DNA of 33,581 bases from Betaproteobacteria bacterium. GTDB taxonomy: Bacteria; Pseudomonadota; Gammaproteobacteria; Burkholderiales; Burkholderiaceae_C. The DNA lies in NCBI GenBank assembly GCA_028870715.1, contig JAGWOZ010000012.1, positions 1 to 33,581 on the forward strand. Reading direction: 5' to 3'. The notes beneath the pieces were generated by a model. It did not search any database. It had not been told where the DNA came from and worked only from the letters and a program-made list of their open reading frames with translations. Shown here in pieces: positions 2,134 to 33,577 of this stretch; position 1 is the stretch's first letter; each line of letters opens with the position of its first letter. The position numbers and the translations under genes are program-made.

Positions 2134-2260
2134 TGCAGTTGCCTCGCGTTTTGCAGGTTCCCTTGCAGAAGGTGGCCGTCCTCTGCCGAGCAGATGTATC
2201 GAAGGCTTGCGCTCCATTCCGTGAGAGGGTTCCACGCCTTTTCCCAGCAGTGCGGGGGGC

Positions 2261-3487: not shown

Positions 3488-3492
3488 GGTGG

Positions 3493-3789
3493 TCAGACCT
3501 CTGCCCTTTCAGTCCAATGCCGCTGCGCAAGGCGCCCTTGCAAGATGGCCCAGGCGCCTTCGCTGCGCAGTCGCGTTGGCGGCGTGACCTGGGAGATCAT
3601 GGAGCGCTGGCCGCCGAGCGGCCCTCGACTGGAGGGTTGGAGAACACGATTACTGCCGTGTGGCTGGCTGCCGAAGACCAGCTTGCCGGGATGCCTGCGC
3701 CAGCCGACGCGCCGAACCAAGCGAAAGCCAGTGCCATTGAACGCAGGTGTGGCGCCGGTCCGATAGGAGAGGGATCGATTTATGCTCAT
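3493..3789 (-). CDS. Unrecognised 98-residue protein inside the aryl polyene operon
   Basis: I do not recognise this protein. It is basic (many Arg and Gly), with no signal peptide, lipobox, membrane segment or known motif. Its reality rests on layout: the ATG at 3789 overlaps the deacetylase TGA by 4 nt (ATGA), and its stop lies 5 nt before the ketosynthase ATG, so it exactly fills the space between two real genes. In other APE clusters the position between the exporter and ApeO is often held by a small envelope protein (ApeN type), but I cannot align this protein with that family. It could be a divergent or eroded version, or a chance ORF. Confidence 0.5.
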   Translation of the reverse strand: MSINRSLSYRTGATPAFNGTGFRLVRRVGWRRHPGKLVFGSQPHGSNRVLQPSSRGPLGGQRSMISQVTPPTRLRSEGAWAILQGRLAQRHWTERAEV

Positions 3790-4619
3790 GAAAAGGCTTG
3801 ACGCAAGGTGACGGGGCGCAGCCCAAGGCTCGCGATGGAGTCCAACAGGCCAGGCAGCACTTCGAAAATGACGGGCTGCCCCGATGCTGTGCGCGCGGCA
3901 TGGCCATCGTGCAGCAGCACGATATCGCCCGCGCGCATGCCATGCCGCAGGCGATGCAGAACTCTCATTGGATCACGTTCGCGTGTATCGAAGCCGCGCC
4001 GCGTCCAGCTCGCCAGCTGCAGGCCGAGTTGGCTCAGAACCCGGTCGAGGAAGGGGTTGCGCAGCCCTGCTGGAGCGCGGAAGAAGGTCGGTGCCTGTCC
4101 AGTGATGCCAGTCAGCGTGGCCTGAGCGACCTGCAATTCGCGGAGGAAGCGGCGCGGACCGGACAACGAGAAGCTGTGGCGGTGGCTGTGACTGTGATTT
4201 TCCACGGCGTGGCCGCGCCGCACGATGTCACGGCACAGGTCCGGGTAGGCACTGGCTCGCTCCCCGATGCAAAAGAAGGTGGCCTTGGCGTTGTGCGCAT
4301 CAAGGACGTCAAGCACGCCTGGCGTTACGAGCGGGTCGGGCCCGTCATCGATGGTCAGCGCGATTTCGCCGCGCGCCACGGCTGTGTCGGGCAGACGTGT
4401 GTGGTTGGCGCCGAGAAGTTTGCTGCGTGGCCACAGGCCGGCGCCCGCGAGCACCAGATGGTTGAGCGCCAGGATACTCAGCCCCCAGGGCCATAGGCTG
4501 GTCTGAAGGGCCACGGCGCCAAGCACAAGCGGGTGCAAGATTAGCGAGCCAGCGACAAGCGGCGCGGGCCGCCAGCCGGCGCCGGTCGCCGGCTGAGGTG
4601 CGGGGCTGGACACTGGCAT
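3786..4619 (-). CDS. Membrane-anchored polysaccharide deacetylase family protein (NodB fold)
   Basis: A 277-residue protein. Residues about 20-65 form two hydrophobic segments. The NodB homology domain follows, with TIDDGPD (Asp91/Asp92), the metal-binding His pair in NHSHSHRH (His142/His146), RAPAGLRNP and LLHDGH. All the usual carbohydrate esterase 4 catalytic positions appear present, so it should be an active metal-dependent N- or O-deacetylase. The substrate is unknown. It sits between the MMPL exporter (12 nt upstream) and the small unknown ORF (ATGA overlap) in one operon, so it probably modifies the lipid- or glycan-linked polyene, or the surface it is attached to. That role is inference. 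Confidence 0.85.
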   Translation of the reverse strand: MPVSSPAPQPATGAGWRPAPLVAGSLILHPLVLGAVALQTSLWPWGLSILALNHLVLAGAGLWPRSKLLGANHTRLPDTAVARGEIALTIDDGPDPLVTPGVLDVLDAHNAKATFFCIGERASAYPDLCRDIVRRGHAVENHSHSHRHSFSLSGPRRFLRELQVAQATLTGITGQAPTFFRAPAGLRNPFLDRVLSQLGLQLASWTRRGFDTRERDPMRVLHRLRHGMRAGDIVLLHDGHAARTASGQPVIFEVLPGLLDSIASLGLRPVTLRQAFS

Positions 4620-4631
4620 GCGGGTTTGCTC

Positions 4632-6998
4632 TTAGACGGCAGCAGGCGGCCGCGTCGTGGTGGACGGTGAGGCCGACAGTATGGCCGAAAACACCAGGGC
4701 CAGCAGCACGCCGGGGCCTACCGTCATCCCCAGGGCTTGCAGAACAGGCACGCCGGACAAGGCCAACGGCCCGAAGCCGAGCACAGTGGTGAGATTGGCA
4801 ACCAATAGCGAGGCCAGCGTGCGTGGCGCAATGCCGCCACGCTGCGCGCCCTGATCGAAAAACAGCGCGTAGTTCGAGCCGACTGCGACGATGAGCATGA
4901 GGCCGATGAGGTGCAGCAAAGTCAGTTGCTGTCCACCCAGCAGCAGCCCGGCGCCGACCACAAGTACCGCGCTCAGAAGGGGAGCAAGCACCCGTAGCGT
5001 GCGAGGTGCGGAGCGCAGGCTGACCACGAGCAGTGCAGCAATGCACGCCAGGCTCGTCAGCGATAGCCAGGCTGCAGTGTGCAGGTAGTTGTCATAGAGG
5101 CTGTTGCTGAGCTGGCCAAGGTTGATGTAACTGGCTGGAGTGCCAGCCAATGCAGCTCGCACCTGCGCGCCATCGATGTTCCGGTTTGCCTGCGCATGCA
5201 GCGGCAGCACGGCCAGCCAGCGTCCATCCGTCTGGCGAAGCAGCATGCCATCGAGGGCCAGCGCAAAGGAGGTATGCGCCAGCTGCCCACGCGCGAGCAG
5301 GCCCTGCGAGCGCGCAGCCTGCACATCGTGCACAAATGGTGCGAACAATCGGGCGCTCACCGGCAGTCCGATGATCGCTTGCTCCAGCCGACGCTGCAGA
5401 ACGGCCGCATCGGGCAGCGCTGCGAGACGGCGGCGTTGGGTGGCGGCACTCGGAAGGTACCGGTCTGGGCTATCGAAGCCGGTGATGACGCCGCGCGACA
5501 CCAGACTTTGCAAGCGGGGGCGCAGTGCCTCGGCCGCAGTCAACGCAGCGTCTGAACTGGTCCCTTGGACGACCACCAGGTTGCCCGAATCGGGCGCGCC
5601 GAGCTGACGGCGCAGCTGAGCATCCAGCTTCAGTGCCTCAGGGGTCACGGGGCTGAGTGCGGCGAGTCGCGTATTCCACAGGGCATCGCGTTGCGAAATG
5701 AGCACGCCAAAGGCAATCACCACGGTGATGCCAAGCAACCAGCGCAGGCGCCGCAGCCCTGGCAGCCGCGCTGTCAAGTACGCGCCAAAGGGCGCAAGGT
5801 CGCGCATCGACAGGCGTGCCGGCATCAATTGCGGCAGCACAAAGCGCGTGACGAGTGCTGCCACGAGCAGACCGGCGATGGAATACAGGCCAAGCTGGGC
5901 CAAGCCGGGGAAGCCCGACATCAGCAGGGTGGCAAAGCCAAACACCGAAGTCAGCATGCCCAAACGGACGGTTGGCCAGAAGCTCTGAAGCCAGAGGGTG
6001 CGATCGGTGACGGAGGGCTGAGTGGACTGCACAAAGAGGTAGATCGCGTAGTCCACCGCCTCGCCCATGAGCGTTGTGCCAAAGCCCAGGGTCACGCCTT
6101 GCACCGCGCCGAAGCCAAGGCTGACGGCGGCGATGCCGGCCAGCACCCCCGACAGCACCGGGAGCAGACCCAATGCCAAGACCGTCGGCGAGCGATAGAC
6201 GAGCAGCAACAAGCCGACGATGAGCACGGCGCCGAGGAGCGAAACGCGCTCCACCGCGCGCTTGATCAGCGCTCGCGACTGCACAGCGAATACGCCCGGG
6301 CCGCTCATCACCAGCGTGGTCTGGCGCGCGTCTGCACCGCCCTGGCGCTGGGCCATGGCGAAGGCGTCGCGGATGGTCGCCATGGCCTGTTGCATGGCGT
6401 CGGTGTCGGTGCCTTGCGCCCGGGTTTGCACCAGAAGCAAGGCGCGCGGCGCCCCGGCGGCGGCCCATACGCCGTTGTCTCGCTCAGGTCCCTGGCCCGG
6501 CGAAAGACGTTGCACGAGGTCCAGCAGCGCGCCGGTGGGGTCGGTGGGGAGAAGCGCCTTGAGGCCTTGCCCCATGGGCGAGGCGAGGCGATCGATACTA
6601 TTGGTAATGCCGCGGTGCAACCCCAGGACGCTGAACTGAGACGCAGTATTGGGCGACAGCACGTAACGGTAGTGGAACAGCAATTGCTCATCGCGTTGTG
6701 CGTTCAGGGGTTGGCCGTTCTCCACGGCGACGAAGGCTCGATCCGCGCGCAGGCGTGCAGCCATCGACTTCGACAGATCGGCGCGCGTCGCGGCGTCAGC
6801 ACCGTCAATGCCAATGAGGATGAGCCGCGAGACCAGGCCCCGGCGTAGCTGGTCCACCAGGAAGCGTTCCTGGGCCGTGGGCGCCTGCGGCAGGAACGCC
6901 GACATGTCCGCCGTGAATCGACTCTTGACGATGACGACCGCGCAGGCCAGCAGCACGGCCAGCCAAAGCAGCACGGGGACAGCCGCGCGCCGGTTCAT
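4632..6998 (-). CDS. MMPL/RND-family exporter of the aryl polyene cluster
   Basis: A 788-residue inner-membrane protein with the MMPL/RND layout. One N-terminal transmembrane helix (VPVLLWLAVLLACAVVIV) is followed by a large periplasmic loop, a block of five helices (roughly residues 260-400), a helix near 420, a second periplasmic loop and a second block of helices near the C-terminus. Family knowledge from APE and hopanoid/lipid exporters suggests it extracts the lipid-linked polyene from the inner membrane and hands it to the LolA-like protein. The start overlaps the LolA-like stop by 4 nt (ATGA), so carrier and exporter are translationally coupled. Confidence 0.9.
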   Translation of the reverse strand: MNRRAAVPVLLWLAVLLACAVVIVKSRFTADMSAFLPQAPTAQERFLVDQLRRGLVSRLILIGIDGADAATRADLSKSMAARLRADRAFVAVENGQPLNAQRDEQLLFHYRYVLSPNTASQFSVLGLHRGITNSIDRLASPMGQGLKALLPTDPTGALLDLVQRLSPGQGPERDNGVWAAAGAPRALLLVQTRAQGTDTDAMQQAMATIRDAFAMAQRQGGADARQTTLVMSGPGVFAVQSRALIKRAVERVSLLGAVLIVGLLLLVYRSPTVLALGLLPVLSGVLAGIAAVSLGFGAVQGVTLGFGTTLMGEAVDYAIYLFVQSTQPSVTDRTLWLQSFWPTVRLGMLTSVFGFATLLMSGFPGLAQLGLYSIAGLLVAALVTRFVLPQLMPARLSMRDLAPFGAYLTARLPGLRRLRWLLGITVVIAFGVLISQRDALWNTRLAALSPVTPEALKLDAQLRRQLGAPDSGNLVVVQGTSSDAALTAAEALRPRLQSLVSRGVITGFDSPDRYLPSAATQRRRLAALPDAAVLQRRLEQAIIGLPVSARLFAPFVHDVQAARSQGLLARGQLAHTSFALALDGMLLRQTDGRWLAVLPLHAQANRNIDGAQVRAALAGTPASYINLGQLSNSLYDNYLHTAAWLSLTSLACIAALLVVSLRSAPRTLRVLAPLLSAVLVVGAGLLLGGQQLTLLHLIGLMLIVAVGSNYALFFDQGAQRGGIAPRTLASLLVANLTTVLGFGPLALSGVPVLQALGMTVGPGVLLALVFSAILSASPSTTTRPPAAV

Positions 6999-7591
6999 GG
7001 CGAAGCGACAGGGTGGATGTGCATGACGGAGCGGTCGCCGTCGGCCTGCTCCACGGTGATCGTTTGCACGACGCCTTCAATCCCGCTGATGCGGATGTCA
7101 CTGATGTGCTCATGCGCCTTGACGTCGCGCGGAACCAGGGTGAGGGTCCATTGCGCGGCCGGGCCATCCAGGGTCAGGTCGTAGTGGCGTTGCAGGAAGT
7201 CAAGGTCGCCATTGAGTGTGGCGCGGATGCCGTCGATGAGCGTGGCGACGTCGGGATGTTCACGCAAGTCGAACTGCTGCGAATGTCCGCTTGCTTCCAT
7301 CGTGAGCTGATTGCCCATCAGGGTCAAGGTCTGCCGCCTGGGCTTGAGCGTGCGCATCTGCAGGAAATCCGGTGCCGCGAATCGCAATTCGCCAGATGAC
7401 TCGATGGGCTTGTTCAGCATCGCAAGGGTCTTGGTTTCCGTGAAATCGGCGCGGCCACCGTGATGCTGGACCAGTGCGTGCATCAGCGTCTGCAGATTCC
7501 ATCCGGCGGCCAGTCCACCACTCGCCCACAACAATGCCGCGGCAACCAGGCAGGCGCGCAGGCAAAGGCTAAGAAGAAAAGGCAGCTTCAT
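6995..7591 (-). CDS. LolA-like outer-membrane lipoprotein carrier family protein
   Basis: A 198-residue secreted protein. The first 30 residues form a signal peptide (KLPFLLSLCLR charged start, hydrophobic core, cleavage near GGLAAG). The mature part resembles LolA-type periplasmic carriers: FTETKTLAMLNKPIESSGELRF near the start, then a series of beta strands, with GDRSVMHIHP near the end. It is expected to shuttle the lipidated polyene across the periplasm with the MMPL exporter encoded next. It has ATGA overlaps on both sides (with the acyltransferase upstream and the exporter downstream). It is distinct from housekeeping LolA by context. Confidence 0.85.
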   Translation of the reverse strand: MKLPFLLSLCLRACLVAAALLWASGGLAAGWNLQTLMHALVQHHGGRADFTETKTLAMLNKPIESSGELRFAAPDFLQMRTLKPRRQTLTLMGNQLTMEASGHSQQFDLREHPDVATLIDGIRATLNGDLDFLQRHYDLTLDGPAAQWTLTLVPRDVKAHEHISDIRISGIEGVVQTITVEQADGDRSVMHIHPVASP

Positions 7592-8598
7592 GGCGTTTCG
7601 GGTTCTGCGGGGGGCGCTGACGGTTGCGCACTGCGGCTCCAGAAGTCGAAAAAATTGAACCAGTTATCGGGCTCGCGCTCGCAATGGGCCTGGAGGCGTT
7701 GTACATACGTCGCAAGCGCTGCGCTCTCGGCCTCGCTGCGAGCTCGCCGGTCTGTGTCGGAGAAGTCGGCTAAGCATTCGAAATACACGTCATAGCGATT
7801 CCCGCCACCGTAGACGCCAAGAGCCATGACGACAGGTTTGCGCAGAAGAGCGGCGATGCGCCAGGGGCCAGCAGGCCAGCGTGCGGGCTCGCCGAAGAAG
7901 GGTACGCACACGGTTTCGTCGTCGTGCAGCGAGCGGTCGGCCAGTATGCCGATGATTGCACCGTCATCGAGTGCATCGCGCAGGCGAAGCATCGACTCGG
8001 GTTGGCCGAGCGCAATGACGTCATGCTCGGACAGGGGATTAATCGCCTTGAGCGCGGCATTGATCTTGCGCGCGTTGCCCTCGTACATCAGCATGCACAC
8101 ACGCAGGCCCGGGCGCTGGTGTGAAATGGCACGCAGGACCTCAAAACTGCCGAAATGAGCCCCGACCATGAACACGCCTTCACCACGGTTCAATGCCGCG
8201 TCAATGACCTCCTGCCCGTGGACACGGATGCTCAGGAGGTCGAAACGACCGTTGAGCAGATAGACCCTGTCGTGAATGGTCGAGGCGAAGCTGAAGAACT
8301 GGCGAAAGCTGTCGCTGATGCTGGGTGCACGCCCGAGCGCACGCGCCAGGTATTGGCGCGAAGCGCGTCTCGCCGCGGGGGCGAACACCAGGAAGTACGC
8401 GGCGATGCCAGACAGAACGACACGTGCCGCGCGTCGCCCCAATCGCAGGGAAATCCATGTCATGATGCGCAGCATCAGCATATTGCTGCGTTCGGCGTTC
8501 CGTACCCATTGAGCCTGCCGGCTGGGCGCGGAAACGGGGGATGGCCCTGGCGCGGCACCAGTTCGTTTCCCCGAGGGTGGAGGTAAGCGCGTGCTCAT
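7588..8598 (-). CDS. Lysophospholipid acyltransferase-family (HtrB-like) acyltransferase
   Basis: A 336-residue protein of the LpxL/HtrB acyltransferase superfamily. An N-terminal membrane segment (RVVLSGIAAYFLVFAP region) precedes the catalytic HFGSFE (H-x4-E) in VGAHFGSFEVLRA; ILADRS and the GEPARWPAGPWRIA substrate loop follow. In APE clusters such an enzyme is thought to attach the polyene to, or acylate, the lipid anchor. The ATG at 8598 overlaps the ApeI-like stop as ATGA and was preferred over the in-frame ATG at 8607. The long upstream open frame is a shadow of the dehydratase gene. Confidence 0.87.
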   Translation of the reverse strand: MSTRLPPPSGKRTGAAPGPSPVSAPSRQAQWVRNAERSNMLMLRIMTWISLRLGRRAARVVLSGIAAYFLVFAPAARRASRQYLARALGRAPSISDSFRQFFSFASTIHDRVYLLNGRFDLLSIRVHGQEVIDAALNRGEGVFMVGAHFGSFEVLRAISHQRPGLRVCMLMYEGNARKINAALKAINPLSEHDVIALGQPESMLRLRDALDDGAIIGILADRSLHDDETVCVPFFGEPARWPAGPWRIAALLRKPVVMALGVYGGGNRYDVYFECLADFSDTDRRARSEAESAALATYVQRLQAHCEREPDNWFNFFDFWSRSAQPSAPPAEPETP

Positions 8599-8915
8599 CG
8601 AACGCATCCATCGGCCACGCGCAGGCGCCCGCGGGCAACCACGCGCGTGCTGGCGTGCAGGCTGAATGTCACGAGCCCCGAACCCGTGGTGTCTTGACGC
8701 AGGTCCAGCGCCTCGCCGGGCAAGACGGGCGAGAAAAACTTCACCGATGCAACGTGCCACGCGCTTTCGTCAAGGCCGCAGCGTAGGCACACGGCGTGCA
8801 CGACACTGTCGAGCAGCATCGCTCCCGGTGTGATGGGACTGCCGGGAAAGTGCCCCGCATAAACAGGGTGCTCGGCAGGCGGAGCCGTCAGCAATTCAGT
8901 CGGCATGGTTGTCAT
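8595..8915 (-). CDS. apeI: 3-hydroxyacyl-ACP dehydratase subunit (ApeI-like hotdog protein)
   Basis: A 106-residue FabA/FabZ-type hotdog protein. The signature GHFPGSPITPGAMLLD at residues 21-36 contains the likely catalytic His22 and acidic Asp36. It is expected to pair with the ApeP-like protein encoded at the far end of the operon to form the dehydratase. Start choice is uncertain: ATG at 8915 (20-nt overlap with the AMP-ligase end) or ATG at 8906 (11-nt overlap); neither has a strong ribosome-binding site. Confidence 0.83.
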   Translation of the reverse strand: MTTMPTELLTAPPAEHPVYAGHFPGSPITPGAMLLDSVVHAVCLRCGLDESAWHVASVKFFSPVLPGEALDLRQDTTGSGLVTFSLHASTRVVARGRLRVADGCVR

Positions 8916-10269
8916 CGTCGATGAGGTGTCGTGCCGATGCACGTGTGGCCAACGCGGACAAAGCGTCGCGAGGGAGTTTGCCCGTTGCATTGCGCGGCAA
9001 GGTGTCGACAAAGACCAGCGGTCGTGGCATGAATGCCGGGTCAAGGCGTTCACGCAGTGCCTCGCGCACGACGGCGCGATCAATCGCGGGAGCGACGACG
9101 AAGGCCATCAGTCGGGCCACGGACACGTCAGCGCCAGCATCGGGCATGAAGAACGCGCCGTCTTGCACGCCGGGGATGCTCGTGAGTTGATGGTTGAGGT
9201 GAGCCAGAGAGCTGCGTTTGCCGGCGATGTTGATCATGTCGGCGCCGCGTCCGTGCAAGAAAAAGCGGCGGTCGTCGACGATTTCAATGATGTCGTGCAG
9301 CACCTGGGCTTGGGCAAGATGTCCGCCCGTGACTCGGACTTGCCCATGCGGTTCTGGCTCCAGGCGCACTCCGGGAAAAAGCTCCCAGACATCTGTGCGC
9401 GCTGTGCGGCGGGTGGCGATCTGACCGGTTTCGGTCGAGCCGTAGATCTCCACAAGAGGGGCGTTCAGGCGGCCCTCGGCCTCTTGCGCCAGATCCCGTG
9501 GCAGCGGGGCTGTAGCCGACAAAACCAAGTTCAAGGGGGGAATGCGGACGTGGGTAGCAAGCAGTGCGCGCAAGTGCACGGGCGAAGTGACCAGCATTCG
9601 CGGAGCGCGGATGCGCGTTAGCGCGGCGGCAACGTCGGCTGGATAGAACGGCTGCTCGGCGCTCATCGCCACGCAACCATGCAGCGCAATGAGCGCTGTC
9701 GACTCGAATCCGTACATGTGCTGAGGGGGAACCGTGCCCACCAGAGCATGGGCGCGGCCGTCGCGAAGGCCAAGGCGCAAGGCGCCGGCCTGCACGCACT
9801 CAGCAAGCGATCCCCAGGTCTTTGGATGGGGCACCGGGGCTGCGGTGGATCCGGAGGTGAAGACCTGCGCGACCACACGGGCGGCTTCGATGTGCGGCAT
9901 GTTCACCATGGCAGTCGCGTCGCAACCGACGTTGCGATCGGCATACTCGACACGCGGCAGTTGGATGCCGTCGTCATGGTCGCTCAGACAGAACGCATCA
10001 GGGGCCAGGTTGCGCAGTTGACAGATCGACTCGGGCGTGCGTGTTGACGGCAGAAGGCTGATCTTTCCGGTGATGACCGAGGCGCCGAACCCCACCAGAA
10101 AGCGGTAGCGGTCTTTGCAGACGTTGAGGACGTGGCCGCTCGCCGGGAGGCGGCTTGCAAGGGATTGCACGTCAAGCAGGAAGTCGCGCACCGTCACGGC
10201 ATGGCCATCGCGCCAAGCCAGTGTGTCGTCGGTGGACAGCCAGGAGACGAGCGGCAGTTGCATCAGCAT
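8896..10269 (-). CDS. apeH: AMP-dependent acyl-ACP/CoA ligase (starter activation, ApeH-like)
   Basis: A 457-residue adenylate-forming enzyme. Visible ANL motifs: the P-loop-like FTSGSTAAPVPHPKTW, IYGSTETGQ for ATP and substrate binding, the hinge-region HGRGADMINIAGKR, and the C-terminal catalytic Lys in NATGKLPRDAL. It is shorter than CoA ligases (500-600 residues), as is usual for APE AMP-ligases. It probably activates an aromatic acid such as 4-hydroxybenzoate and loads it on the ACP. ATG at 10269 is the first Met after the upstream gene and leaves a 58-nt gap; a second ATG lies at 10263. No clear Shine-Dalgarno sequence is visible, and a non-ATG start further upstream is possible. Confidence 0.87.
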   Translation of the reverse strand: MLMQLPLVSWLSTDDTLAWRDGHAVTVRDFLLDVQSLASRLPASGHVLNVCKDRYRFLVGFGASVITGKISLLPSTRTPESICQLRNLAPDAFCLSDHDDGIQLPRVEYADRNVGCDATAMVNMPHIEAARVVAQVFTSGSTAAPVPHPKTWGSLAECVQAGALRLGLRDGRAHALVGTVPPQHMYGFESTALIALHGCVAMSAEQPFYPADVAAALTRIRAPRMLVTSPVHLRALLATHVRIPPLNLVLSATAPLPRDLAQEAEGRLNAPLVEIYGSTETGQIATRRTARTDVWELFPGVRLEPEPHGQVRVTGGHLAQAQVLHDIIEIVDDRRFFLHGRGADMINIAGKRSSLAHLNHQLTSIPGVQDGAFFMPDAGADVSVARLMAFVVAPAIDRAVVREALRERLDPAFMPRPLVFVDTLPRNATGKLPRDALSALATRASARHLIDDDNHAD

Positions 10270-10327
10270 CGAAGATGGGGCACACAAGGGCTTGCGACAC
10301 TTGGGTGCGTGGGTGGGAAAACGCAGG

Positions 10328-11017
10328 TCAGCGCGTCTGCGAGCCGATGGCTGGCTGTAACGGAACGGCTGTGGCACTGCCACGTCTGCGATAGCGCATA
10401 AAGGCCGCCACGGCTTGCAAGGGGCCGGTGCGCTCGTGCGCGGGGAGCACCAGAACCCGCACGGCGTACTCGCCAACGAACATGATGGCCACAAGCGGCG
10501 CAACCAGCACGTCGGCGAACAAGGACCATACCGCTGGCGCGGCCACGAGAAACAAGGCGGTCGACACCAAAGCCATGACGGCAAAAAAGACAGTCCAGGC
10601 CCATGTCAGACCCCGTGTGTAGCGCGATGTGCGTGCGGAAATATGGCCATCGTGCGCCAAGAGCGCAAATTGCGTGATCAGGGCCACACGGCCACGCCGC
10701 AGGCTGCTGCCAAAGAGGAGGGCAAGCAGGGTCATCGGTCCGATGTTTTGGACCAGATAGCCCCAACGATAGTGTTGCAGGAGTACATCGCGGGCAAACC
10801 ACAGGACCAGCGCCGCAAGTACCACGACGGCAAGGGCACGGATGCGATGCAGCGACTTCCAGGCCATCCACACGCCGCCCAACAACAAGGGCGCGTAAGC
10901 GAGTCCAGCACCTAGCAGGGTGGGGTGGGCCGACCGGGCGCAGACGTAGCTTGCCGCCGCATAGGTCACGCTTGCTGCGGCGACAAAGGCGCCTTGCATG
11001 ACAGCGCGCCAGCGCAT
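10328..11017 (-). CDS. COG4648-type integral membrane protein of the aryl polyene cluster
   Basis: A 229-residue protein with about six hydrophobic segments. It has the feature usual for the small membrane protein found between ACP and AMP-ligase in APE clusters, including LITQFALLAHDGHISARTSR followed by a TRGLTWAWTVFFAVMA helix. The molecular function is unknown. The ATG at 11017 starts 1 nt after the ACP stop, so coupling is strong; the longer open frame to 11194 lies over the ACP gene and is a shadow. Confidence 0.82.
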   Translation of the reverse strand: MRWRAVMQGAFVAAASVTYAAASYVCARSAHPTLLGAGLAYAPLLLGGVWMAWKSLHRIRALAVVVLAALVLWFARDVLLQHYRWGYLVQNIGPMTLLALLFGSSLRRGRVALITQFALLAHDGHISARTSRYTRGLTWAWTVFFAVMALVSTALFLVAAPAVWSLFADVLVAPLVAIMFVGEYAVRVLVLPAHERTGPLQAVAAFMRYRRRGSATAVPLQPAIGSQTR

Positions 11018-23935: not shown

Positions 23936-25093
23936 GTGAGATATTCCAAATTTGCAACCATTGCCGCATCGCTGGCAGTTGTCTTTTCTAGCTATTCGGT
24001 GGCGGTGTGCGCGGCAGAGACCGTGAAGATCGATGCGATCAACGAACTATCTGGCGCTGGCGCAATTTCTGGCACGAACTTCAATAACGGTGTCAAGATG
24101 GCGGTGCAGCAGATCAATGCCGCCGGAGGCATCTTGGGCCGCAAGATCGATCTGGAAAGTTTCGACACGCAGTCCAACCCTGGCGTCGCCAGCGCGTTGA
24201 TCCGCCGCGCCGCGGGCGACGGCGCCTACGCAGTGCTCGGGCCCGGGTTCTCCGGTTCGGTGGTCGTCAGCATGAAACAGGCTGAGCTGAACAAGATTCC
24301 TGATCTCGTAGGCGCCGAGGCCAACAACATCAGCGAACAGGGAAATCAATACATTTTCCGAACCTCGCTTGACCAGGCACAGTCGATGCCGGCCGTGGCC
24401 GCGTATATGACCAAGGAACTGCACGCCAAAAAAGTTGCGGTGATCTGGGTAAACAACGATTTCGGCAAGGACGGGCGCAACAGCATTCGCACCAACCTAG
24501 AGAAGGATGGCGCGCAGATCGTAAGTGACATTCCGGTGGAGCAGGGCCAGGTCGATTTCACCAGTGCGATCTTGAAGATCAAGGAGTCAAAGGCCGATTC
24601 GCTATTCCTCTACCTGAACGAGGGCGGCGATGCGCGCTTCTTGGTACAGCTGCGCAAGTTTGGCTTCGACGGTCCGGTAGTCGGCCAGTCGTCCTTGGCC
24701 AACCCGTCGGTGATCGCGCTAGCCAAGAGCGCGGCCAACGGCGTGTACTGTCAGGTCGGCCTGACCACCGCCGACAAGGACCCACTGGTGCAGAAGTTTA
24801 TTTCGCAGTACGAGAGCCTATACCATTCAGTGCCCGACCAAAACAGCTTCAAGGGCTATATCGCCATGCAGACCGTGGCCGCCGCTACGGAGAAATTGGG
24901 TAAGTTTGACCGCCAGGCTCTGGCAAACGAACTCCACCATATCAATCTGAGTGCCAAGCAATATCCTGGCATCCTGTACGACCTTAGCTATGAAGCGAAT
25001 GGAAACATTCTGCGCAAAAGCTTTATGGTGCAGGTGCAGAACGGCCAACAGGTTATTGTGAAGCAATATCCAGCGAGCGCCAGCAAAGGCTGA
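23936..25093 (+). CDS. Periplasmic ABC-type binding protein (LivK-like, branched-chain amino acid/aromatic class)
   Basis: A 385-residue type I periplasmic binding protein. A signal peptide spans residues 1-27 (ending AVCAAE); then INELSGAGAISGTNFNNGVK, AAGGILGRKIDL and a long two-lobed ligand-binding fold follow, a full length for the family. Relatives bind branched-chain amino acids, amides or aromatic acids. No permease or ATPase genes are visible, so it must use components encoded elsewhere or act as a sensor. The start is GTG 23936 after GGAGAG. It is convergent with the LysR gene. Proximity to shikimate-pathway-like catabolic genes suggests an aromatic or hydroaromatic ligand (inference). 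Confidence 0.87.
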   Translation: MRYSKFATIAASLAVVFSSYSVAVCAAETVKIDAINELSGAGAISGTNFNNGVKMAVQQINAAGGILGRKIDLESFDTQSNPGVASALIRRAAGDGAYAVLGPGFSGSVVVSMKQAELNKIPDLVGAEANNISEQGNQYIFRTSLDQAQSMPAVAAYMTKELHAKKVAVIWVNNDFGKDGRNSIRTNLEKDGAQIVSDIPVEQGQVDFTSAILKIKESKADSLFLYLNEGGDARFLVQLRKFGFDGPVVGQSSLANPSVIALAKSAANGVYCQVGLTTADKDPLVQKFISQYESLYHSVPDQNSFKGYIAMQTVAAATEKLGKFDRQALANELHHINLSAKQYPGILYDLSYEANGNILRKSFMVQVQNGQQVIVKQYPASASKG

Positions 25094-27854: not shown

Positions 27855-28279
27855 GGTGGCTCCTGTGCGCCGGTCCAAGCCGGCGCGATGTTGTGAATGA
27901 ACGAGGTATATGGTGAAGGCTTGGCCTGCTAGGGTGGCCCCAAGTCATGTGTATACCTTCATAAGGATATGGGCGAAGCGTTGGCAGTGGTGCGCGGGGG
28001 CCGTGTCGAGCCGCGCCATACATGCCGCGTGGCGCGAGCGGCGGGTGGTCCGTGGGGGCCGAAGCCGCAGGGGCTTGCCTGAGGCCAATCCGTTACCGCC
28101 ACGTCGCCGAGGCAGCATCGAGCCCCGTGCGGTCAGAGATCCAGCGCACGCACGGGCGCATATCGCGCGGTAATCGGGAGGTCCCGCGTTGTTCCGCATC
28201 GCGCTGGGAAGCGTCGAGTGCGCTGGCTGATTGAGTTCATGGAGCTGCGCGCGTCCGATACGCACGTGGTGCGGCGCAA
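27855..28279. other. Region between GlcG-like gene and group II intron relic
   Basis: About 425 nt. It should contain the promoter of the minus-strand GlcG-like gene. The overlapping open frames on both strands (for example 27945-28286 minus and 28022-28234 plus) have no recognisable domain. It may include the eroded 5' part of the group II intron relic, which I cannot define. Confidence 0.4.
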
Positions 28280-28960
28280 GAGGCAAGCATCGATCCGTAG
28301 TTCGCCAACATCTGCTTGCGCGACGTGTTCAGGCTAGGGCTCAAGCAATGATGGGGTGCCGTGCGCGCCGTGAAGTGATCGCGGCACGGAATGCCGACGG
28401 TTGCGTTGCCGTATTCGAGTTCCGCGCCGACGCGCGGCGCCTTAAGCGCGCGATGGAAGAACGCCTGGGCCATTTCGGGCTGAAGCTGGATCTCGAAAAG
28501 ACGCGGGCGTCGGAGTTCGGACCCGTCGGGCATGCGCGCCGACGCAGCAGAGTTCCAGGCAGACGGTCGATTTTCAATTTTCTTGGTTTCACGCGTTACG
28601 GCCCGACGACGAGGACGAGCCACTTCATGGTCTTGCGGCTCATCAGCGCCAAACTTCAGGTGGCCAAGCCCGAACTCAGACGGAGCATGCATCCGCGCGT
28701 CCCGGAGTAGGGTCAGCACCTGCGCGCGGTGTTGGCTTGGCATCGCACGCCAACCCGCCGCAGTCGGAGCCGTGGCCTGACCTGGCGTCGAATGGACCAA
28801 TAGATGGCGGACTAGTTGCCTGTTCCACGCATCTGCCACCCTTGCCCAAGCCGCGGTTCGATCGGCAGGACCTAGGACTGGCGCCGTATGCGGCGGTCCC
28901 TCACTTATGGATCTGTAGATGCGGCGCTCGGTGACTGGCATTCCCACTCGGATTGGACTC
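28280..28960 (+). pseudogene. Decayed group II intron reverse transcriptase/maturase
   Basis: Pieces of a group II intron-encoded protein appear in order in shifting frames: a degenerate copy of the segment before the YADD box (ASIDP, FANICLRDVFRLGLKQ), then NADGCVAVFEFRADARR, where the catalytic YADD is already replaced by NADG, then ERLGHFGLKLDLEKTRASEFGP, FNFLGFTRYGP, HFMVLRLISAKLQ and LRRSMHPRVPE. The downstream region, up to about 28,960 (YGSVDAALGDWHSHSD in another frame), resembles the tail and 3' flank common next to such maturases. Several frameshifts and stops mean it is inactive. Confidence 0.8.
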
Positions 28961-29059: not shown

Positions 29060-29929
29060 TCAATCGTGCAACCGCGCGGCGGCGCGGAGTTCGTCGGATG
29101 TCGCAGCTGGGTAACCGAAGAAATCCAAGTATGCTGGAATCATTTCGAACAACATGTCGGTGCCAACCTGAAACGGGCACCCGCGGCTGCGCGCGGCGGC
29201 GAGAAGCGGCGTAATTTCGCGCTTCATCACGACCTCGCCGACGAAGGTCGTCGGCGCCAGGCGAGAGATATCGAACGGAAGCGGGTCATCGTCGCGCATG
29301 CCCAGCGGAGTGGCGTTGCAGACTAGGTCGAAGCCGTCGGGGTCGTTTGTGCCGGTGGATACCCGCAGATCGGGGTAGTGCTCGCGAAGGCGCTGCGCCA
29401 GACGCTTGCAGCTCGCCGCGTCGATGTCGTAGAGCTGAATCTCGCCAACGTTTGCCGCGGCGAGCGCGGCCGCGATCGGTGAGCCAACTCCGCCGCAACC
29501 AGCGATCAACACGCGCATGCCTGCGAGGCGGAGCCCCTTGCGCTGGAGAGCACGAACAAATCCGATGCCGTCGAACTGGTCTCCCGCCAGCGAGCCGTCG
29601 GGCCGCCGCGCGACCGCGTTGCATGCGCCAGCGATGCGCGCGCTGACAGAGAGCGAATGGACCAGCGGCACCGTTGCGACCTTGTGTGGCATGGTGATCA
29701 GCGCGCCACGCAGATTGGTCAGGCGGAAGATGTGCTCGAAGGTCGCTGCGTAGTCCTCGGCTTTGACGCCCATCGGAACAACGATGGCATTGATCGCCTT
29801 GCTTGCAAACCACGGGTTGTAGATCATTGGCGCACGGAACGCCTCGGTCGGATAACCGATGTGGGCAATGAGTTGCGTTGCTCCGTTGATCAAGATGGTG
29901 TCCTCTGGGGAAATGTGGGGCTGGTGCAT
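29060..29929 (-). CDS. Shikimate dehydrogenase-like protein (AroE family, catabolic context)
   Basis: A 289-residue member of the AroE/quinate dehydrogenase family: LITMPHK with catalytic Lys83, GDQFDGIGF with catalytic Asp120, Rossmann loop GCGGVGS (144-150), and NATPLGM. It would interconvert shikimate (or quinate-like) and the 3-dehydro form with NAD(P). Substrate-binding parts differ from housekeeping AroE (GATQLIAHIGYPTEAF instead of the usual IAHSLSP), which suggests a specialised paralogue. It is followed by a strong terminator and preceded by the transporter gene 39 nt upstream, so the two likely form an operon. No clear ribosome-binding site. Confidence 0.87.
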   Translation of the reverse strand: MHQPHISPEDTILINGATQLIAHIGYPTEAFRAPMIYNPWFASKAINAIVVPMGVKAEDYAATFEHIFRLTNLRGALITMPHKVATVPLVHSLSVSARIAGACNAVARRPDGSLAGDQFDGIGFVRALQRKGLRLAGMRVLIAGCGGVGSPIAAALAAANVGEIQLYDIDAASCKRLAQRLREHYPDLRVSTGTNDPDGFDLVCNATPLGMRDDDPLPFDISRLAPTTFVGEVVMKREITPLLAAARSRGCPFQVGTDMLFEMIPAYLDFFGYPAATSDELRAAARLHD

Positions 29930-29968: not shown

Positions 29969-31072
29969 TCATGCAGCTGTAATCGACAACGTGGCCTCTG
30001 GGCTCATCTCGCAGGCGCCGCGCGGCACTTTGTCGATTGGGTGCCAAGGGGCCGAGTTGCCGGCCCGGGGCAGCGCCACCAGACCGTCGAGCACGACGAG
30101 TTCATCTGAGGCTGCAGCCGGACCCCTTGCCGCTGTGGCCGTCGTGCCGCGGAGCCATCGCAGCGGTACGCACTCGGCGCGCCGCGACACTCCAAGCAGT
30201 AGTCCGGCGGTTATGACGATTCCGATCCCACTGAGCGTCGCCGCGTTGGGCAGATCGCCGAAAAATAGCGCGCCAAGGGCGATTGACCACAGCAATTGCG
30301 CGTAAGCAATCGGCGCGAGCACTGATGCGGGCGCGGATTCAAGAGCCTTGATCATCAGCCAGTGCGTAGCGCCGGACAGCACACCGACGAGCGCCAGCAT
30401 GCATGCTGCCAAGAGGTCGGGCCGCACCCAGTGCGAAGGAAGCAGGATCGTGGTTAGCGCCGCGCCGACGCTAAGGCCGTAAAGCAGCGATCGCTTTGGT
30501 GTCTCGCGCCCGGCCAGTCGCCGAGTCAGCGCCATGTAGCCGGCGTAGGTCAATGCCATGCCGAGCGGAAGGAGCGAAGCCAACGTGAACAAGCCACCGC
30601 CTGGGCGCACGATGACAACTACCCCGGCGAAACCTAATGCGACGCTGCACCACGTTAACGCGCTGACGCGTTCGCGCAGAAAAATGGCGGCCAGCGCGGT
30701 CAGCAGTATGGGATGCACCGAGCTGATCGAAAGTGCCTGCGCAAGCGGGAGCGCGCGGTACGCGAGCATGATCAAGATCGTCCCAGCAATCATCAAAACG
30801 CTGCGAAGCAACTGCCATCCTGGATCAGCCGCACGCCAGACTCGGGTGTCACGCTCGCGCAGTAGCCAGAAGGCGGCCATCGCGAATGGAACTGCATAGC
30901 GTGCCCACGCGACCATCACGACCGGATAGTGCAACATCAGTAGCTTGGACAGTGCCGCGATCAACGCGTACCCCATGGTTACCGCAATCATTACCAGCAC
31001 ACCATGCCGCACATCGGCAGCGGGGCATGCAAGTTTTGGCGGCCATGGTGGGCCTGAGATGGTGCTTTGCAT
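29969..31072 (-). CDS. EamA/DMT-family inner-membrane transporter
   Basis: A 367-residue protein with ten hydrophobic segments in two EamA halves (first half from about residue 25, second from about residue 170), the DMT superfamily pattern. The C-terminal 70 residues after GVSRRAE are hydrophilic, longer than usual. It probably imports or exports a small organic metabolite; sharing a unit with the shikimate-dehydrogenase-like gene suggests a hydroaromatic acid. ATG 31072 is chosen; a TTG at 31105 would add 11 residues. No clear ribosome-binding site. Confidence 0.86.
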   Translation of the reverse strand: MQSTISGPPWPPKLACPAADVRHGVLVMIAVTMGYALIAALSKLLMLHYPVVMVAWARYAVPFAMAAFWLLRERDTRVWRAADPGWQLLRSVLMIAGTILIMLAYRALPLAQALSISSVHPILLTALAAIFLRERVSALTWCSVALGFAGVVVIVRPGGGLFTLASLLPLGMALTYAGYMALTRRLAGRETPKRSLLYGLSVGAALTTILLPSHWVRPDLLAACMLALVGVLSGATHWLMIKALESAPASVLAPIAYAQLLWSIALGALFFGDLPNAATLSGIGIVITAGLLLGVSRRAECVPLRWLRGTTATAARGPAAASDELVVLDGLVALPRAGNSAPWHPIDKVPRGACEMSPEATLSITAA

Positions 31073-31850
31073 GAAGCGTGTCACGGCGCGTTGGTTCGAT
31101 CTCAATCAACATTGATGGGTGCAACCATGCTACGCAGCGCGGGTGGCGGCCTCAACGCGCGAAAGCACACAGTGCGCGGATATCGCGCGGAGGCGTTCAA
31201 CTTGCGCGCAGCTTTTGACGCGACGGGAAGGTGAGCAGAAGCTCACGTCAAATCTCGGTGAGCCTCACGTAAAAGCTGTTGAGCGAAGACGCTCCATCCG
31301 AGCAGCCGTTATTGCGTTGCAAGCCGCATTCTTGATCGTCGCGTGCTCGGCGTGGCGGCGGACTCCATGGAGGAGCATCAAAGCCGGCACCACGCCCGGG
31401 ATCGCCGATACGAGTGGCATTTGGCCACGGGTTGACGCGATCCGTCGGTGCCGGTGAGCGCGGACCCGACCTTAAGCTTGTATGGAGCTCATGCACTGTA
31501 CCCAGCGAGCCGTGAGGAGCGCAGGCATCCAGCCTGAGCGGCAATTGCCGCGATGGCCGGAGGTACTTACTCAGGAGTCGTGAATGAGCGGATCAAGTGG
31601 TGCAGATCCTGCGGGTTGAAGATTGCCTCCTGGCCCTTGTCGCCGAGTTGCGCGCTCTTGCGCAGAGTGCCGAAGGTACTGTGGGAACACGCGCAGATCG
31701 GTTTGATCAAGACTTCCAGGAGGCATGCGCCGTGGCCTTATTGCACGGGTCGCACGAAGCGTTCAATGTTGCGTTGGCTACACGGGGATTCGGATATCGC
31801 CGGTTGCGCATCGCGGCCGACTTCAATGAAGCGTGCGTCCGGCGTTTGCC
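31073..31850. other. Non-coding or degraded stretch upstream of the transporter
   Basis: About 780 nt with no assignable gene. On the minus strand a short frame ending at about 31,570 (containing LGDKGQEAIFNPQDLHHLIR) looks more protein-like than the rest and may be a gene fragment of unknown family. It must also hold the promoter for the transporter/dehydrogenase unit. Confidence 0.45.
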
Positions 31851-32729
31851 TCAGGATTCGCGCGCGTATGGTGAAAGTCGCGGCTGCAATGCGCGCCGCA
31901 GCACCTGGTTGGTCAGCCAGTTGGCAGAGCGCTTGGCGTGGTCGGTGACGACAGACGCGGGCAACTGGCGGTAGTCGTCGTTCATGACGAGGAAGCTGTA
32001 GTCACCGCGGTAGCCGATGCGATCGATGGCCCTGACCATCTCGGTCAGCCGAGTACTGTGGCCGCCATCCCCCGGGAAGACACGGCTGTGATTCGCCGCC
32101 ACCCTGCGGTCGGGATCGGTGAACATGGCGGCCTCGCTGAAGTCGGACAACTGCACCAACGCGATCCGGTTCGGATCGACGTCTTCAAGAAGGGACAGGT
32201 CCGCGCCAGTCATTAGCATGTGCAGTGTGTCGAGCACCAGGTGGAAGTTCTCGTGGGCGACATCGGCGACCACGGACCACGCGTCGCTCGCGGTGCGCAC
32301 GCTGTGCGCCCAAGGCACCGCCTTGTAGCCGATTCGCACGTTGAAAGGGACGCCCAGGTTTGCCAGTTTCCGCAGATCGTGCACGTAGCCCGAAGCATCC
32401 GGCGCGGGTTCCTCGGTGCTCGACGTCACGATCAGCATCGGCGCGCCGACCGCCTTGCAGATCTTCAGCGACTCCTTCGCGATGTCGACCTTGTACTGGT
32501 GCCGTGTTGGGCTGCGTCCCTCATAGTCGCGAAGAACCTGCAAGCCCGTGATCCGCAGTTCGCTAGCGCGCACCAGACGGACGGCCTCGTCGTAGCCGCC
32601 CGGATGGTTCGCCAAGTCGCTGCCCCAGAGCATAATCTGATCGAACCCTGCAGCGCGCACCTGCTGCAGCTTGCCTTGAAGCGATCCTGGAAGGGACACC
32701 GGATCGAGGCTGAAATTACTCTGGATCAT
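31851..32729 (-). CDS. QuiC-N-like TIM-barrel protein (3-dehydroshikimate dehydratase-like)
   Basis: A 292-residue sugar-phosphate-isomerase-like TIM barrel aligning along its length with the N-terminal half of QuiC-type 3-dehydroshikimate dehydratases: LQGKLQQVRAAGFD, VRIGYKAVPW, LDTLH, RVFPGDGGH, GYRGDYSFLVMND. In the usual family the first metal-ligand Glu is in YEALAW; here it is Lys136. The last Glu (LEIFND) is Leu247. Asp167, His170 and Gln193 are kept. Classical dehydratase activity is therefore doubtful. Its ATG overlaps the VOC gene stop by 4 nt (ATGA). In QuiC proteins the two parts are fused; here they are separate genes in reversed order. Confidence 0.8.
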   Translation of the reverse strand: MIQSNFSLDPVSLPGSLQGKLQQVRAAGFDQIMLWGSDLANHPGGYDEAVRLVRASELRITGLQVLRDYEGRSPTRHQYKVDIAKESLKICKAVGAPMLIVTSSTEEPAPDASGYVHDLRKLANLGVPFNVRIGYKAVPWAHSVRTASDAWSVVADVAHENFHLVLDTLHMLMTGADLSLLEDVDPNRIALVQLSDFSEAAMFTDPDRRVAANHSRVFPGDGGHSTRLTEMVRAIDRIGYRGDYSFLVMNDDYRQLPASVVTDHAKRSANWLTNQVLRRALQPRLSPYARES

Positions 32730-33577
32730 CGCTCGCACCCCCGGTCGACAAACCCGAACTGCGCACCACCGTGCACTCCGCGCGTGAGAGCGGCGGTTGC
32801 TGTGCTGCGCGGGTCGAACTCGAAGCCGTGGCTGCGCAGGGACGCGACGGTGGCTGCCAGGTCCGATGTGCTGAACACGAGGCGGATGAGTGCCTCGTCC
32901 CAATGCGAGTCACGCGCAAAGTCCTCGGGTAGCTCGAGCAATTCCACGGCGAATTTTCCGCAGGGACTCGTCAGCACCGCGCCATAGGACTCGTCGGTGC
33001 TGGCCGTCGTAGGCACGAAGCCGAACAACTGGCCATAGAAGTCGAGCCAAACGTCGGTGCGCCGAGTGTCGGCGGTCTGCACGACACCGTGGAATTCCAG
33101 GCCGTGCATCGCTGGCGGATTGCGGTCAACGTTGGGCTCGAAGTCGAAGTCAACGTCGTAGACGGAGATGTCGTGGTAGCGGTCGACCAGGTACAGGATG
33201 GAGTCGCCGACGCCGTGCACCCCAGGGATGTTCAGTTCCATCGCTTCGGCGCGACTCGGAATCGGCCAGGCCCCGTTTCCGACCAGGCGTTGGTATGCCT
33301 TACGTGCGTCGGCTACGCGGAACGCCAGTGCGCTCAGCGAAACGTCGTCCGGTTGCGACGTACTGCTGGCAATGACATCCGGGTCGGCGTCGACGACGAT
33401 ATTCATGGTCCCTTGCCTGTACAGGAACACACGGCGCGAACGATGTCGGGCGACCAGAACGAAACCGATTCTCTCAAGCACGGCGCCAAATGCTTCGGGA
33501 TTCGCAGTCGCATACTCCACGAACTCCAGTCCATCCATGCCGAGAATGTTTCCGCTACTGTCAGCTAAATGATCCAT
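32726..33577 (-). CDS. HPPD-like VOC-superfamily protein (QuiC-C-like half)
   Basis: A 283-residue two-domain vicinal-oxygen-chelate protein resembling 4-hydroxyphenylpyruvate dioxygenase and the C-terminal half of QuiC. The opening NILGMDGLEFVEYATANPEA and the first domain (VHGVGDSILYLVDRY) are typical. The second domain is short: His163 (EFHGVV) fits the first iron ligand, but the second His is Arg232 (LIRLVF) and the final Glu is Gly275 (AQFGFVDR). It is probably not a working dioxygenase. The start is ATG 33577, 4 nt before the window edge; ATG 33538 is an alternative. Coupled by ATGA to the TIM-barrel gene. Confidence 0.78.
   Translation of the reverse strand: MDHLADSSGNILGMDGLEFVEYATANPEAFGAVLERIGFVLVARHRSRRVFLYRQGTMNIVVDADPDVIASSTSQPDDVSLSALAFRVADARKAYQRLVGNGAWPIPSRAEAMELNIPGVHGVGDSILYLVDRYHDISVYDVDFDFEPNVDRNPPAMHGLEFHGVVQTADTRRTDVWLDFYGQLFGFVPTTASTDESYGAVLTSPCGKFAVELLELPEDFARDSHWDEALIRLVFSTSDLAATVASLRSHGFEFDPRSTATAALTRGVHGGAQFGFVDRGCER

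Follow-up and report, generated by a model that had tools for sequence, protein, structure and literature searches.

A two-gene pair related to QuiC

The window, which is the whole stretch of 33,581 nucleotides analysed here, comes from a draft genome of a betaproteobacterium of the Burkholderiaceae_C (GCA_028870715.1, contig JAGWOZ010000012.1, below C124). It carries at its end two adjacent genes, one for a protein resembling 4-hydroxyphenylpyruvate dioxygenase (HPPD) and one for a TIM barrel of the AP_endonuc_2 family (Table 1). The open reading frames (ORFs) at 31851–33577 confirmed the layout given in the initial annotation, with the HPPD-like gene first, the barrel gene second and an ATGA overlap between them. 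Only 4 bp of contig precede the ATG of the HPPD-like gene, so the upstream neighbour falls outside the window.

Both proteins resemble parts of QuiC-type 3-dehydroshikimate (DHS) dehydratases. The nearest solved barrel by sequence was QuiC1 of Pseudomonas putida (5hmq; phmmer 1e-29, aligned over barrel residues 7–279), and the AlphaFold2 model of the barrel (pLDDT 86.6) matched the same structure at Foldseek rank 1 with a TM score of 0.82 by query, so that homology and fold both place the barrel among QuiC-type proteins. The HPPD-like protein matched the N-terminal HPPD domain PF14696 (147 bits vs. a cut-off of 27) and did not reach TIGR01263 (86.8 vs. 277 bits). Its model (pLDDT 80.3) retrieved HPPDs first and then the C-terminal part of 5hmq; the best matches in sequence and fold were the HPPDs 1CJX and 7XNT, from which it differs in lacking the iron ligands and in length (283 aa vs. 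about 357). The pair therefore has the same two components as QuiC1 (5HMQ) and QsuB of Corynebacterium glutamicum, but as two genes in the opposite order instead of a single chain with the barrel first, and with two of the four barrel metal ligands lost. Compared with fused QuiC, the HPPD-like part is also shorter and lacks the His/His/Glu triad. The fused-QuiC model NF042435 (635 aa) gave 125 and 84 bits for the two halves against a cut-off of 1200, a comparison that is unfair to separate halves.

Table 1. Features of the window discussed in the text
Feature	Position	Strand	Basis or remark
AP_endonuc_2 / QuiC-type TIM barrel, 292 aa	31851-32729	-	ORF, domain and fold matches
HPPD-like (VOC-fold) protein, 283 aa	32726-33577	-	ORF, PF14696
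ATGA stop/start overlap of HPPD-like and barrel genes	32729-32726	-	sequence
Lys136 codon of barrel (Glu134 in QuiC1)	32324-32322	-	sequence, alignment
Leu247 codon of barrel (Glu239 in QuiC1)	31991-31989	-	sequence, alignment
Arg232 codon of HPPD-like protein	32884-32882	-	second iron-ligand position
Gly275 codon of HPPD-like protein	32755-32753	-	third iron-ligand position
EamA-type transporter; the pair lies on one side, the AroE-like gene on the other	29969-31105	-	domain search
AroE-like protein (shikimate/quinate dehydrogenase family), unusual subfamily	29060-29929	-	catalytic Lys and Asp kept
ORF resembling a group II intron reverse transcriptase fragment	28231-28710	+	by eye
HbpS-like protein; same neighbour in loci L032 and L033	27435-27878	-	domain search
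LysR regulator; same neighbour in locus L186	25189-26112	-	domain search
Liv-type periplasmic binding protein	23936-25093	+	domain search
Run of ketosynthase, dehydratase, MMPL-type exporter, acyltransferase and acyl-ligase genes, aryl polyene kind	45-10584	-	by eye

The initial annotation regarded the arrangement as a rearranged QuiC, a view that the relatives contradict. Barrel matches at 1e-20 were obtained in 32 of 399 genomes of the order, the window genome included; nine of these were weak (~30% identity), and the seven examined were fused QuiC with the barrel first. Within the family, 115 of 299 genomes had barrel matches. Among the unfused loci with an intact barrel metal site (metal-intact, as opposed to metal-less, below), the HPPD-like gene lay directly upstream of the barrel in 78 of the 83 showing one, and the remaining five had a gap of ~850 bp (four loci) or 151 bp (one). 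A rare rearrangement was thus ruled out, and, judged by sequence, the two-gene order is a usual arrangement among the QuiC-type dehydratases of Burkholderiales, most of which retain the barrel ligands. The ATGA overlap itself carries no evidential weight because its exact spacing depends on the start codon chosen: the −4 spacing was called in 22/25 metal-less vs. 1/83 intact loci, and a different start-codon rule also placed it in several intact loci (L007, L008, L010, L017, and L056).

Metal-intact pairs, from Ramlibacter, Aquabacterium, and others, share gene order and partners with the window pair, in many cases also an AroE-like neighbour, and their barrels are mostly 43–51% identical to that of the window. 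The usual neighbours in Ramlibacter and others encode a TetR regulator, a TRAP transporter, a type II 3-dehydroquinate (DHQ) dehydratase (that of L051 passes TIGR01088, 177.9 vs. 169.85 bits), and an AroE-like dehydrogenase. By gene content, this neighbourhood appears to be a quinate operon.

Repeated loss of the metal site in the barrel

We take the metal ligands of QuiC1 to be Glu134, Asp165, Gln191, and Glu239. Alignment of the window barrel to QuiC1 bore out the replacement of both glutamates noted in the initial annotation (K136 and L247), and D167 and Q193 were retained. The QuiC1 literature lists Arg64, Leu97, Glu134, Leu136, Asp165, His168, Gln191, Ser206, Arg210, and Glu239 as active-site residues and states that DHS dehydratase activity needs the metal and is inhibited by EDTA (PMC7442255). 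The window equivalents of the list are R67, I100, K136, V138, D167, H170, Q193, A212, R216, and L247, so the counterparts of R64, D165, H168, Q191, and R210 are kept, and R67, H170, and R216 further mark the barrel as QuiC-type. Position 213, which aligns with Arg207 of QuiC1, is Arg in relatives and Asn in the window.

The three positions 136, 213, and 247 were then compared among 126 barrels, after removal of duplicate loci (L031, L095, L100, L106, L110, L129, and L133) and of two loci with unreadable sites (L065 and L066). E136, R213, and E247 were present in 88/88 metal-intact two-gene barrels and 10/10 fused barrels. All three were changed in 28 of the 126 and kept in 98, with no intermediates (0/126). 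The metal-less barrels comprised the Thiomonas type (n = 8; K136, N213, and L247), two groups of relatives with the working codes g150 (n = 5; K136, D213, and L or Q at 247) and f39 (n = 14; K136, T/A/S at 213, D at 247, plus H170D), and the single barrel L013 of genome G152 (V136, N213, and Q247). K136 was therefore found in 27/28 metal-less barrels, R216 was retained in 27/28 and R67 in 25/26 readable ones; H170 was kept in the Thiomonas group. The search for further adjacent pairs showed that the Lys/Leu combination is identical in the window and seven other Thiomonas-type loci (74–91% barrel identity). Two-gene homologues that keep the barrel ligands do exist, as a refutation of the initial annotation would have it, but the substitutions are not unique to the window genome. 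Separately, two f39-family barrels, L121 (G964) and L123 (G966), keep E136/R213/E247 and carry R216S, and L123 also has Q193R.

Trees of the barrels were built without alignment columns 102, 136, 170, 213, and 247. The first tree omitted metal-intact rows shorter than 240 aa and metal-less rows shorter than 200 aa. Thinning at 72% identity reduced the remaining metal-intact rows to 21, and 25 of the 27 K136 rows, L013, and 6 of the 10 fused rows were retained; the careful tree omitted four long rows (L105, L023, L022, and L020). The metal-less state requires three changes on the tree, with the Thiomonas type and g150 forming one branch (98/88), f39 another (100/100), and L013 a third. Forcing the K136 groups of Thiomonas, g150, and f39 together cost 34.7 log units (p-AU 0.0053, approximately unbiased test). 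Because a single origin of these groups is rejected, K136 arose at least twice. On these alignments, the metal-less pairs descend from the two-gene QuiC-type family, in which the metal site and R213 have been lost jointly and repeatedly.

Selection was assessed from ratios of nonsynonymous to synonymous substitution (dN/dS) by the Nei–Gojobori method, with some pairs near saturation and dS in Thiomonas mostly 0.3 or more. In the Thiomonas group, dN/dS was 0.06–0.24 for the barrel (21 pairs) and 0.09–0.24 for the HPPD-like gene (20 pairs; one more was saturated), compared with 0.07–0.23 among four metal-intact loci (six pairs per gene), whose barrels span 0.07–0.22. In g150 and f39, it was 0.21–0.52 for the barrel and 0.20–0.34 for the HPPD-like gene (six pairs each). 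The window's group thus appears clearly constrained, and some relatives may be less so. Purifying selection on both genes argues against decay in the window's group, and, together with the same residues in other loci, it ruled out an error or the decay of a single genome.

The iron site of the HPPD-like protein has a different history. In place of the 2-His-1-Glu site, the window protein has G164, R232, and G275. The initial annotation counted two of three iron ligands as lost; R232 and G275 were borne out, but all three are missing, since the first-ligand His aligns to G164 (H163 lies one position away, where most relatives have Phe). Fused QuiC had His, His, and Glu at these positions in 10/10 rows. 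Among metal-intact pairs, Phe-Gly occupied 163–164 in 80/83, indicating that the first His is missing across the two-gene family, and R232 was present in 81/83, as it was in 7/7 Thiomonas-type, 4/4 g150, and 12/13 f39 partners (the 13th has a gap). Conservation therefore differs between the two changes: R232 is family-wide, whereas Glu275 is kept in 81/83 metal-intact pairs and Gly275 occurs only in 6/7 Thiomonas-type partners, that of the window included (the L036 partner keeps Glu, and L038 has no HPPD-like partner in its locus). Since nearly all metal-intact pairs share it, the loss of the iron site predates that of the barrel site. By sequence comparison, the HPPD-like loss is mostly old and shared, with only G275 peculiar to the Thiomonas group. 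This result does not support the matched loss in both partners proposed in the initial annotation, and a link between the HPPD-like and barrel losses was ruled out by R232 in the metal-intact pairs.

Gene cluster around the metal-less pairs

The clusters of all three metal-less branches hold a second, metal-intact AP_endonuc_2 barrel, a thiamine diphosphate (ThDP) enzyme, an aldehyde dehydrogenase, and AroE-like proteins, and those of two branches also hold citryl-CoA lyase, CoA-transferase, and DHQ dehydratase. The Thiomonas cluster (L187, L188, and L220–L223) has genes for an AroE-like protein, citryl-CoA lyase, and SauS-like acylating and NAD aldehyde dehydrogenases, followed by type I DHQ dehydratase, a porin, the ThDP enzyme, CoA-transferase III, EamA, and the second barrel, and then by a divergent IclR gene, Liv genes, and the pair, with a further AroE-like gene that either follows the pair or precedes LivH; its far end was covered in G977, G978, G979, G981, and the window genome, and not in G980 and G982. 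In f39, the pair is mostly adjoined by IclR and accompanied by acylating dehydrogenase, ThDP, and second-barrel genes. Citryl-CoA lyase was present in 7/10 f39 loci with a ThDP gene (L149 of G152 is counted among the ten), and CoA-transferase only farther from the pair (16 kb in G396 and 27 kb in G317). G152 itself has the second barrel, ThDP enzyme, acylating dehydrogenase, AroE-like protein, and IclR. In g150, AroE-like genes lie by the pair in 5/5 genomes, AroQ in four stretches (L136, L137, L139, and L140), TRAP genes in two, and NAD aldehyde dehydrogenase and CoA-transferase in three, with no acylating dehydrogenase in the stretches examined. The second barrel is 13–23 kb off, in G352, G819, and G707 together with ThDP, citryl-CoA lyase, and Liv genes.

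Curated cut-offs were passed by AroD (L188, TIGR01093, 190.9 vs. 139.3 bits), AroQ, and citryl-CoA lyase (L196, NF004864, 443.7 vs. 261 bits), but not under the names SauS-like, acetolactate-synthase-like, and CoA-transferase, which are family-level labels only. The second barrels had E, D, H/Q, and E at the metal positions in 21/21 rows, and their best solved match was IolI (9e-10). A metal-intact AP_endonuc_2 barrel linked to a ThDP enzyme, the IolE/IolD-type combination, was found in relatives; in the window genome, the two genes are on different contigs (C75 and C237).

The association with metal-less pairs was compared between genomes, using 20 of the 28 on the metal-less side. A second barrel was linked to the metal-less pair within 25 kb in 17/18 assessable genomes (the window genome and G982 were not assessable because of contig ends), and within 30 kb of an intact pair in 0/22, some of whose contigs end sooner. 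Twenty intact-pair loci were also covered over at most 20 kb, one of them over 18 kb and two only as far as a contig end. None (0/20) had the second barrel, CoA-transferase, either aldehyde dehydrogenase, or citryl-CoA lyase, and a ThDP protein occurred in one (31% identity). The surroundings there are TRAP/AroQ/AroE-like or Liv/AroE-like, in contrast to the cluster above. Across whole genomes, a ThDP orthologue (≥70% identity) was present in 19/20 metal-less vs. 2/24 intact-pair genomes (Fisher 4e-9, with kinship ignored) and in 0/3 same-genus genomes without the pair. In the genomes compared, loss of the metal site is thus associated with the cluster. Citryl-CoA lyase alone is a weak marker: of its ten matches in the 399 genomes of the order, six (L237–L242, 59–68% identity) belong to a module of lyase and CoA-transferase III that has no ThDP orthologue nearby (one 27% ThDP match). 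There the module perhaps serves another acid pathway.

Intradiol dioxygenases (PF00775, a family not specific for protocatechuate) were detected in 11/11 intact-pair genomes, 0/7 Thiomonas-type, 0/4 g150, and 3/6 f39 genomes, plus G152. A strong LigB match (1e-75 or better) was obtained in 4/7 Thiomonas-type, 4/4 g150, and 5/6 f39 genomes, and the drafts of the window organism, G978, and G981 gave no PF00775 and only weaker LigB matches. Some metal-less genomes could therefore still use protocatechuate.

The window genome is a draft (86.5% complete, 384 contigs), and its cluster genes lie on several contigs. C254 (L236) carries a second AroE-like gene (AroE-2), citryl-CoA lyase (82% to L220), acylating and NAD aldehyde dehydrogenases, and AroD, and ends in a porin; C237 (L246) starts with the end of a porin and carries the ThDP gene (90%), stopping after CoA-transferase; and C75 (L192) carries EamA, the second barrel, IclR, and a Liv permease, ending in Liv ATPase genes. 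Gene order on these contigs is that of relatives L187 and L221, so that C124, C254, C237, and C75 look like the same cluster broken over four contigs. A search of the genome at 1e-3 gave no further barrel from the family of the pair.

Of the other genes in the window, members of the AroE-like family lie near the pair in many relatives. The subfamily found by many pairs has GD(M/Q)FDG in place of GDNTDG and FKAP or RAP at the serine positions, presumably the site of the two substrate-binding serines of AroE, and its substrate may differ from shikimate. The intron-like ORF sits between the AroE-like and HbpS-like genes.

A possible non-aromatising route and its alternatives

We lean towards reading the pair as a metal-less descendant of a two-subunit QuiC-type DHS dehydratase that was retooled as its host swapped protocatechuate for a non-aromatising route; metal-dependent DHS dehydration by the pair would be a putative, lost activity. 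The retooling proposed in the initial annotation in preference to decay agrees with the fixed barrel change, the purifying selection, the recurrence on separate branches, and the different gene cluster, and it is stronger than first claimed because the change happened repeatedly and comes with a new gene context. The route can be drawn by analogy with IolE/IolD-type chemistry, in which an AP_endonuc_2 barrel removes water from a ring ketone and a ThDP enzyme opens the resulting 1,2-dione. The cluster holds both protein kinds, with a candidate cyclic 1,2-dione hydrolase (compare cyclohexane-1,2-dione hydrolase, 2PGN); its ring, however, would be quinate or DHQ, and citryl-CoA lyase and CoA-transferase follow.

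In this scheme, quinate would be oxidised to DHQ by the AroE-like protein, and DHQ would be converted to 1-hydroxy-3,4-dioxocyclohexane-1-carboxylate through an IolE-like dehydration by the second barrel and/or the pair. DHS dehydratase acts on a 3-ketone ring and eliminates its hydroxyl at C5, and the same elimination on DHQ cannot aromatise because DHQ has no C1–C2 double bond. The ThDP hydrolase would open the dione between its two carbonyls to homocitrate semialdehyde, which an acylating dehydrogenase, or a dehydrogenase with a CoA-transferase, would convert to homocitryl-CoA, and a citryl-CoA lyase-like enzyme would cleave this to acetyl-CoA and 2-oxoglutarate. The carbon balance is C7 = C2 + C5, and shikimate and DHS would join through a reversed DHQ dehydratase. 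Acylating-dehydrogenase and CoA-transferase content differs by branch much as the route predicts, with the acylating dehydrogenase by the pair in f39, CoA-transferase with NAD dehydrogenase in g150, and both in the Thiomonas type. On such a route, carbon would drain into protocatechuate through any DHS dehydratase still at work, a reason for the enzyme to lose its metal. The barrel would still bind a ring like that of DHQ or DHS, the ammonium group of Lys136 would occupy the metal's place facing Asp167, and the barrel would carry out or prepare a metal-free step without making protocatechuate, with the HPPD-like subunit as a structural, iron-free partner. The pair itself may now carry out a Lys-assisted step or an isomerisation, supply the second barrel, or serve in sensing. 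It is a more doubtful proposal that the window carries part of an undescribed non-aromatising quinate/shikimate pathway via homocitryl-CoA, in which the metal-free pair, with Lys136 replacing the ion, evolved at least twice. In the open-licence literature, we found no relevant known quinate or dehydroquinate route via homocitrate or citryl-CoA lyase, and nothing on Thiomonas with quinate.

Several observations weigh against the retooling and its link to this route. Genomes within a branch are not independent, so the solid count is three branches, and the 28:98 ratio does not indicate prevalence because loci were collected with metal-less queries; many lower-ranked matches fall outside the set read, save one in L146. 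That barrel (9522–10358, a second copy in G961 outside the 126, with no HPPD-like neighbour) has G, N, H, Q, D, R, and E at 136, 167, 170, 193, 213, 216, and 247, and may represent a fourth loss of the metal site; with 136, 167, and 213 changed but E247 kept, it is intermediate at 136/213/247 and shows that the three-site rule has exceptions. R213, the counterpart of Arg207, is absent from the active-site list of PMC7442255. The branches need not share one reaction, because f39 also lost H170, and dN/dS is higher in g150 and f39 than in intact pairs. The metal-less barrel of G707 (L097/L139) also lacks R67, H170, and R216, has one in-frame TAG in the match, and gives the impression of a copy in decay. 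Acetolactate synthase (2e-79) is a closer match to the ThDP enzyme than 2PGN (4.5e-57) is, and G834 has a metal-less pair with only a 38% ThDP match. No linked second barrel was found within 25 kb in G927, and G152 has no citryl-CoA lyase, CoA-transferase, or DHQ dehydratase within 19.5 kb and is not among the ten citryl-CoA lyase matches in the 399 genomes. G143 has the ThDP gene, IclR, and the second barrel (matched in two pieces) with no citryl-CoA lyase within 19.9 kb, and its intact pair is on another contig; in G964, ~38 kb separate the ThDP gene from a pair with R216S and an unchanged E/R/E. Because these two genomes hold the ThDP cluster without an adjacent metal-less pair, such a pair is not strictly needed.

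The same evidence bears on other explanations. An unlikely but serious one is a non-catalytic pair that binds a quinate-route intermediate and serves as sensor, chaperone, or scaffold (of the second barrel, for instance). Missing metal sites in both partners, the retention of R67 and R216, the nearby second barrel in 17/18 assessable genomes, and Val136 in L013, which fits mere loss, all agree with it, as does QsuB, whose C-terminal HPPD-like domain is described in PMC7442255 as inactive on protocatechuate, with a role in oligomerisation proposed. However, K136, not assorted residues, arose at least twice and R213 changed each time, which suggests specific active-site chemistry. If Lys136 instead replaced the metal ion in a DHS dehydratase that still makes protocatechuate, the conserved D167, H170, Q193, R67, and R216 of the Thiomonas group would be accounted for, as would the absence, at 1e-3, of another family barrel from the window genome and the strong LigB matches, possibly protocatechuate dioxygenases, in 4/7 Thiomonas-type and 4/4 g150 genomes. 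This explanation is rather improbable given the ThDP/citryl-CoA lyase cluster around the pair, the distribution of PF00775 (0/7 Thiomonas-type vs. 11/11 intact) with only weaker LigB matches in the window genome, G978, and G981, and the loss of H170 in f39.

A pseudo-enzyme decaying after the ThDP route took over appears very improbable. It would explain the state of the G707 copy, the raised dN/dS in g150 and f39, and the three same-genus genomes that lack both the pair and the ThDP gene, but not the full-length frames, the low dN/dS of the Thiomonas group at dS values mostly of 0.3 or more, or K136 and R216 each in 27/28 metal-less barrels. A sequencing or assembly error, for which the fragmented draft and the contig end at the pair might speak, is refuted by the same residues in several independent assemblies, including Thiomonas sp. 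FB-6.

Plants commonly contain the acids quinate and shikimate, which rank with their most widespread ones; in the textbook route, bacteria take them to protocatechuate and then through oxygen-dependent ring cleavage. Fermenters that specialise in hydroaromatic compounds have been described, among them Ilyobacter insuetus (species description of 2002), and such bacteria reportedly bypass aromatic rings. With a cluster of genes for a non-aromatic route, that bypass would become testable. Separately, the metal site was lost three times in parallel, twice through an identical Glu-to-Lys exchange, a clean natural experiment on an enzyme giving up its metal.

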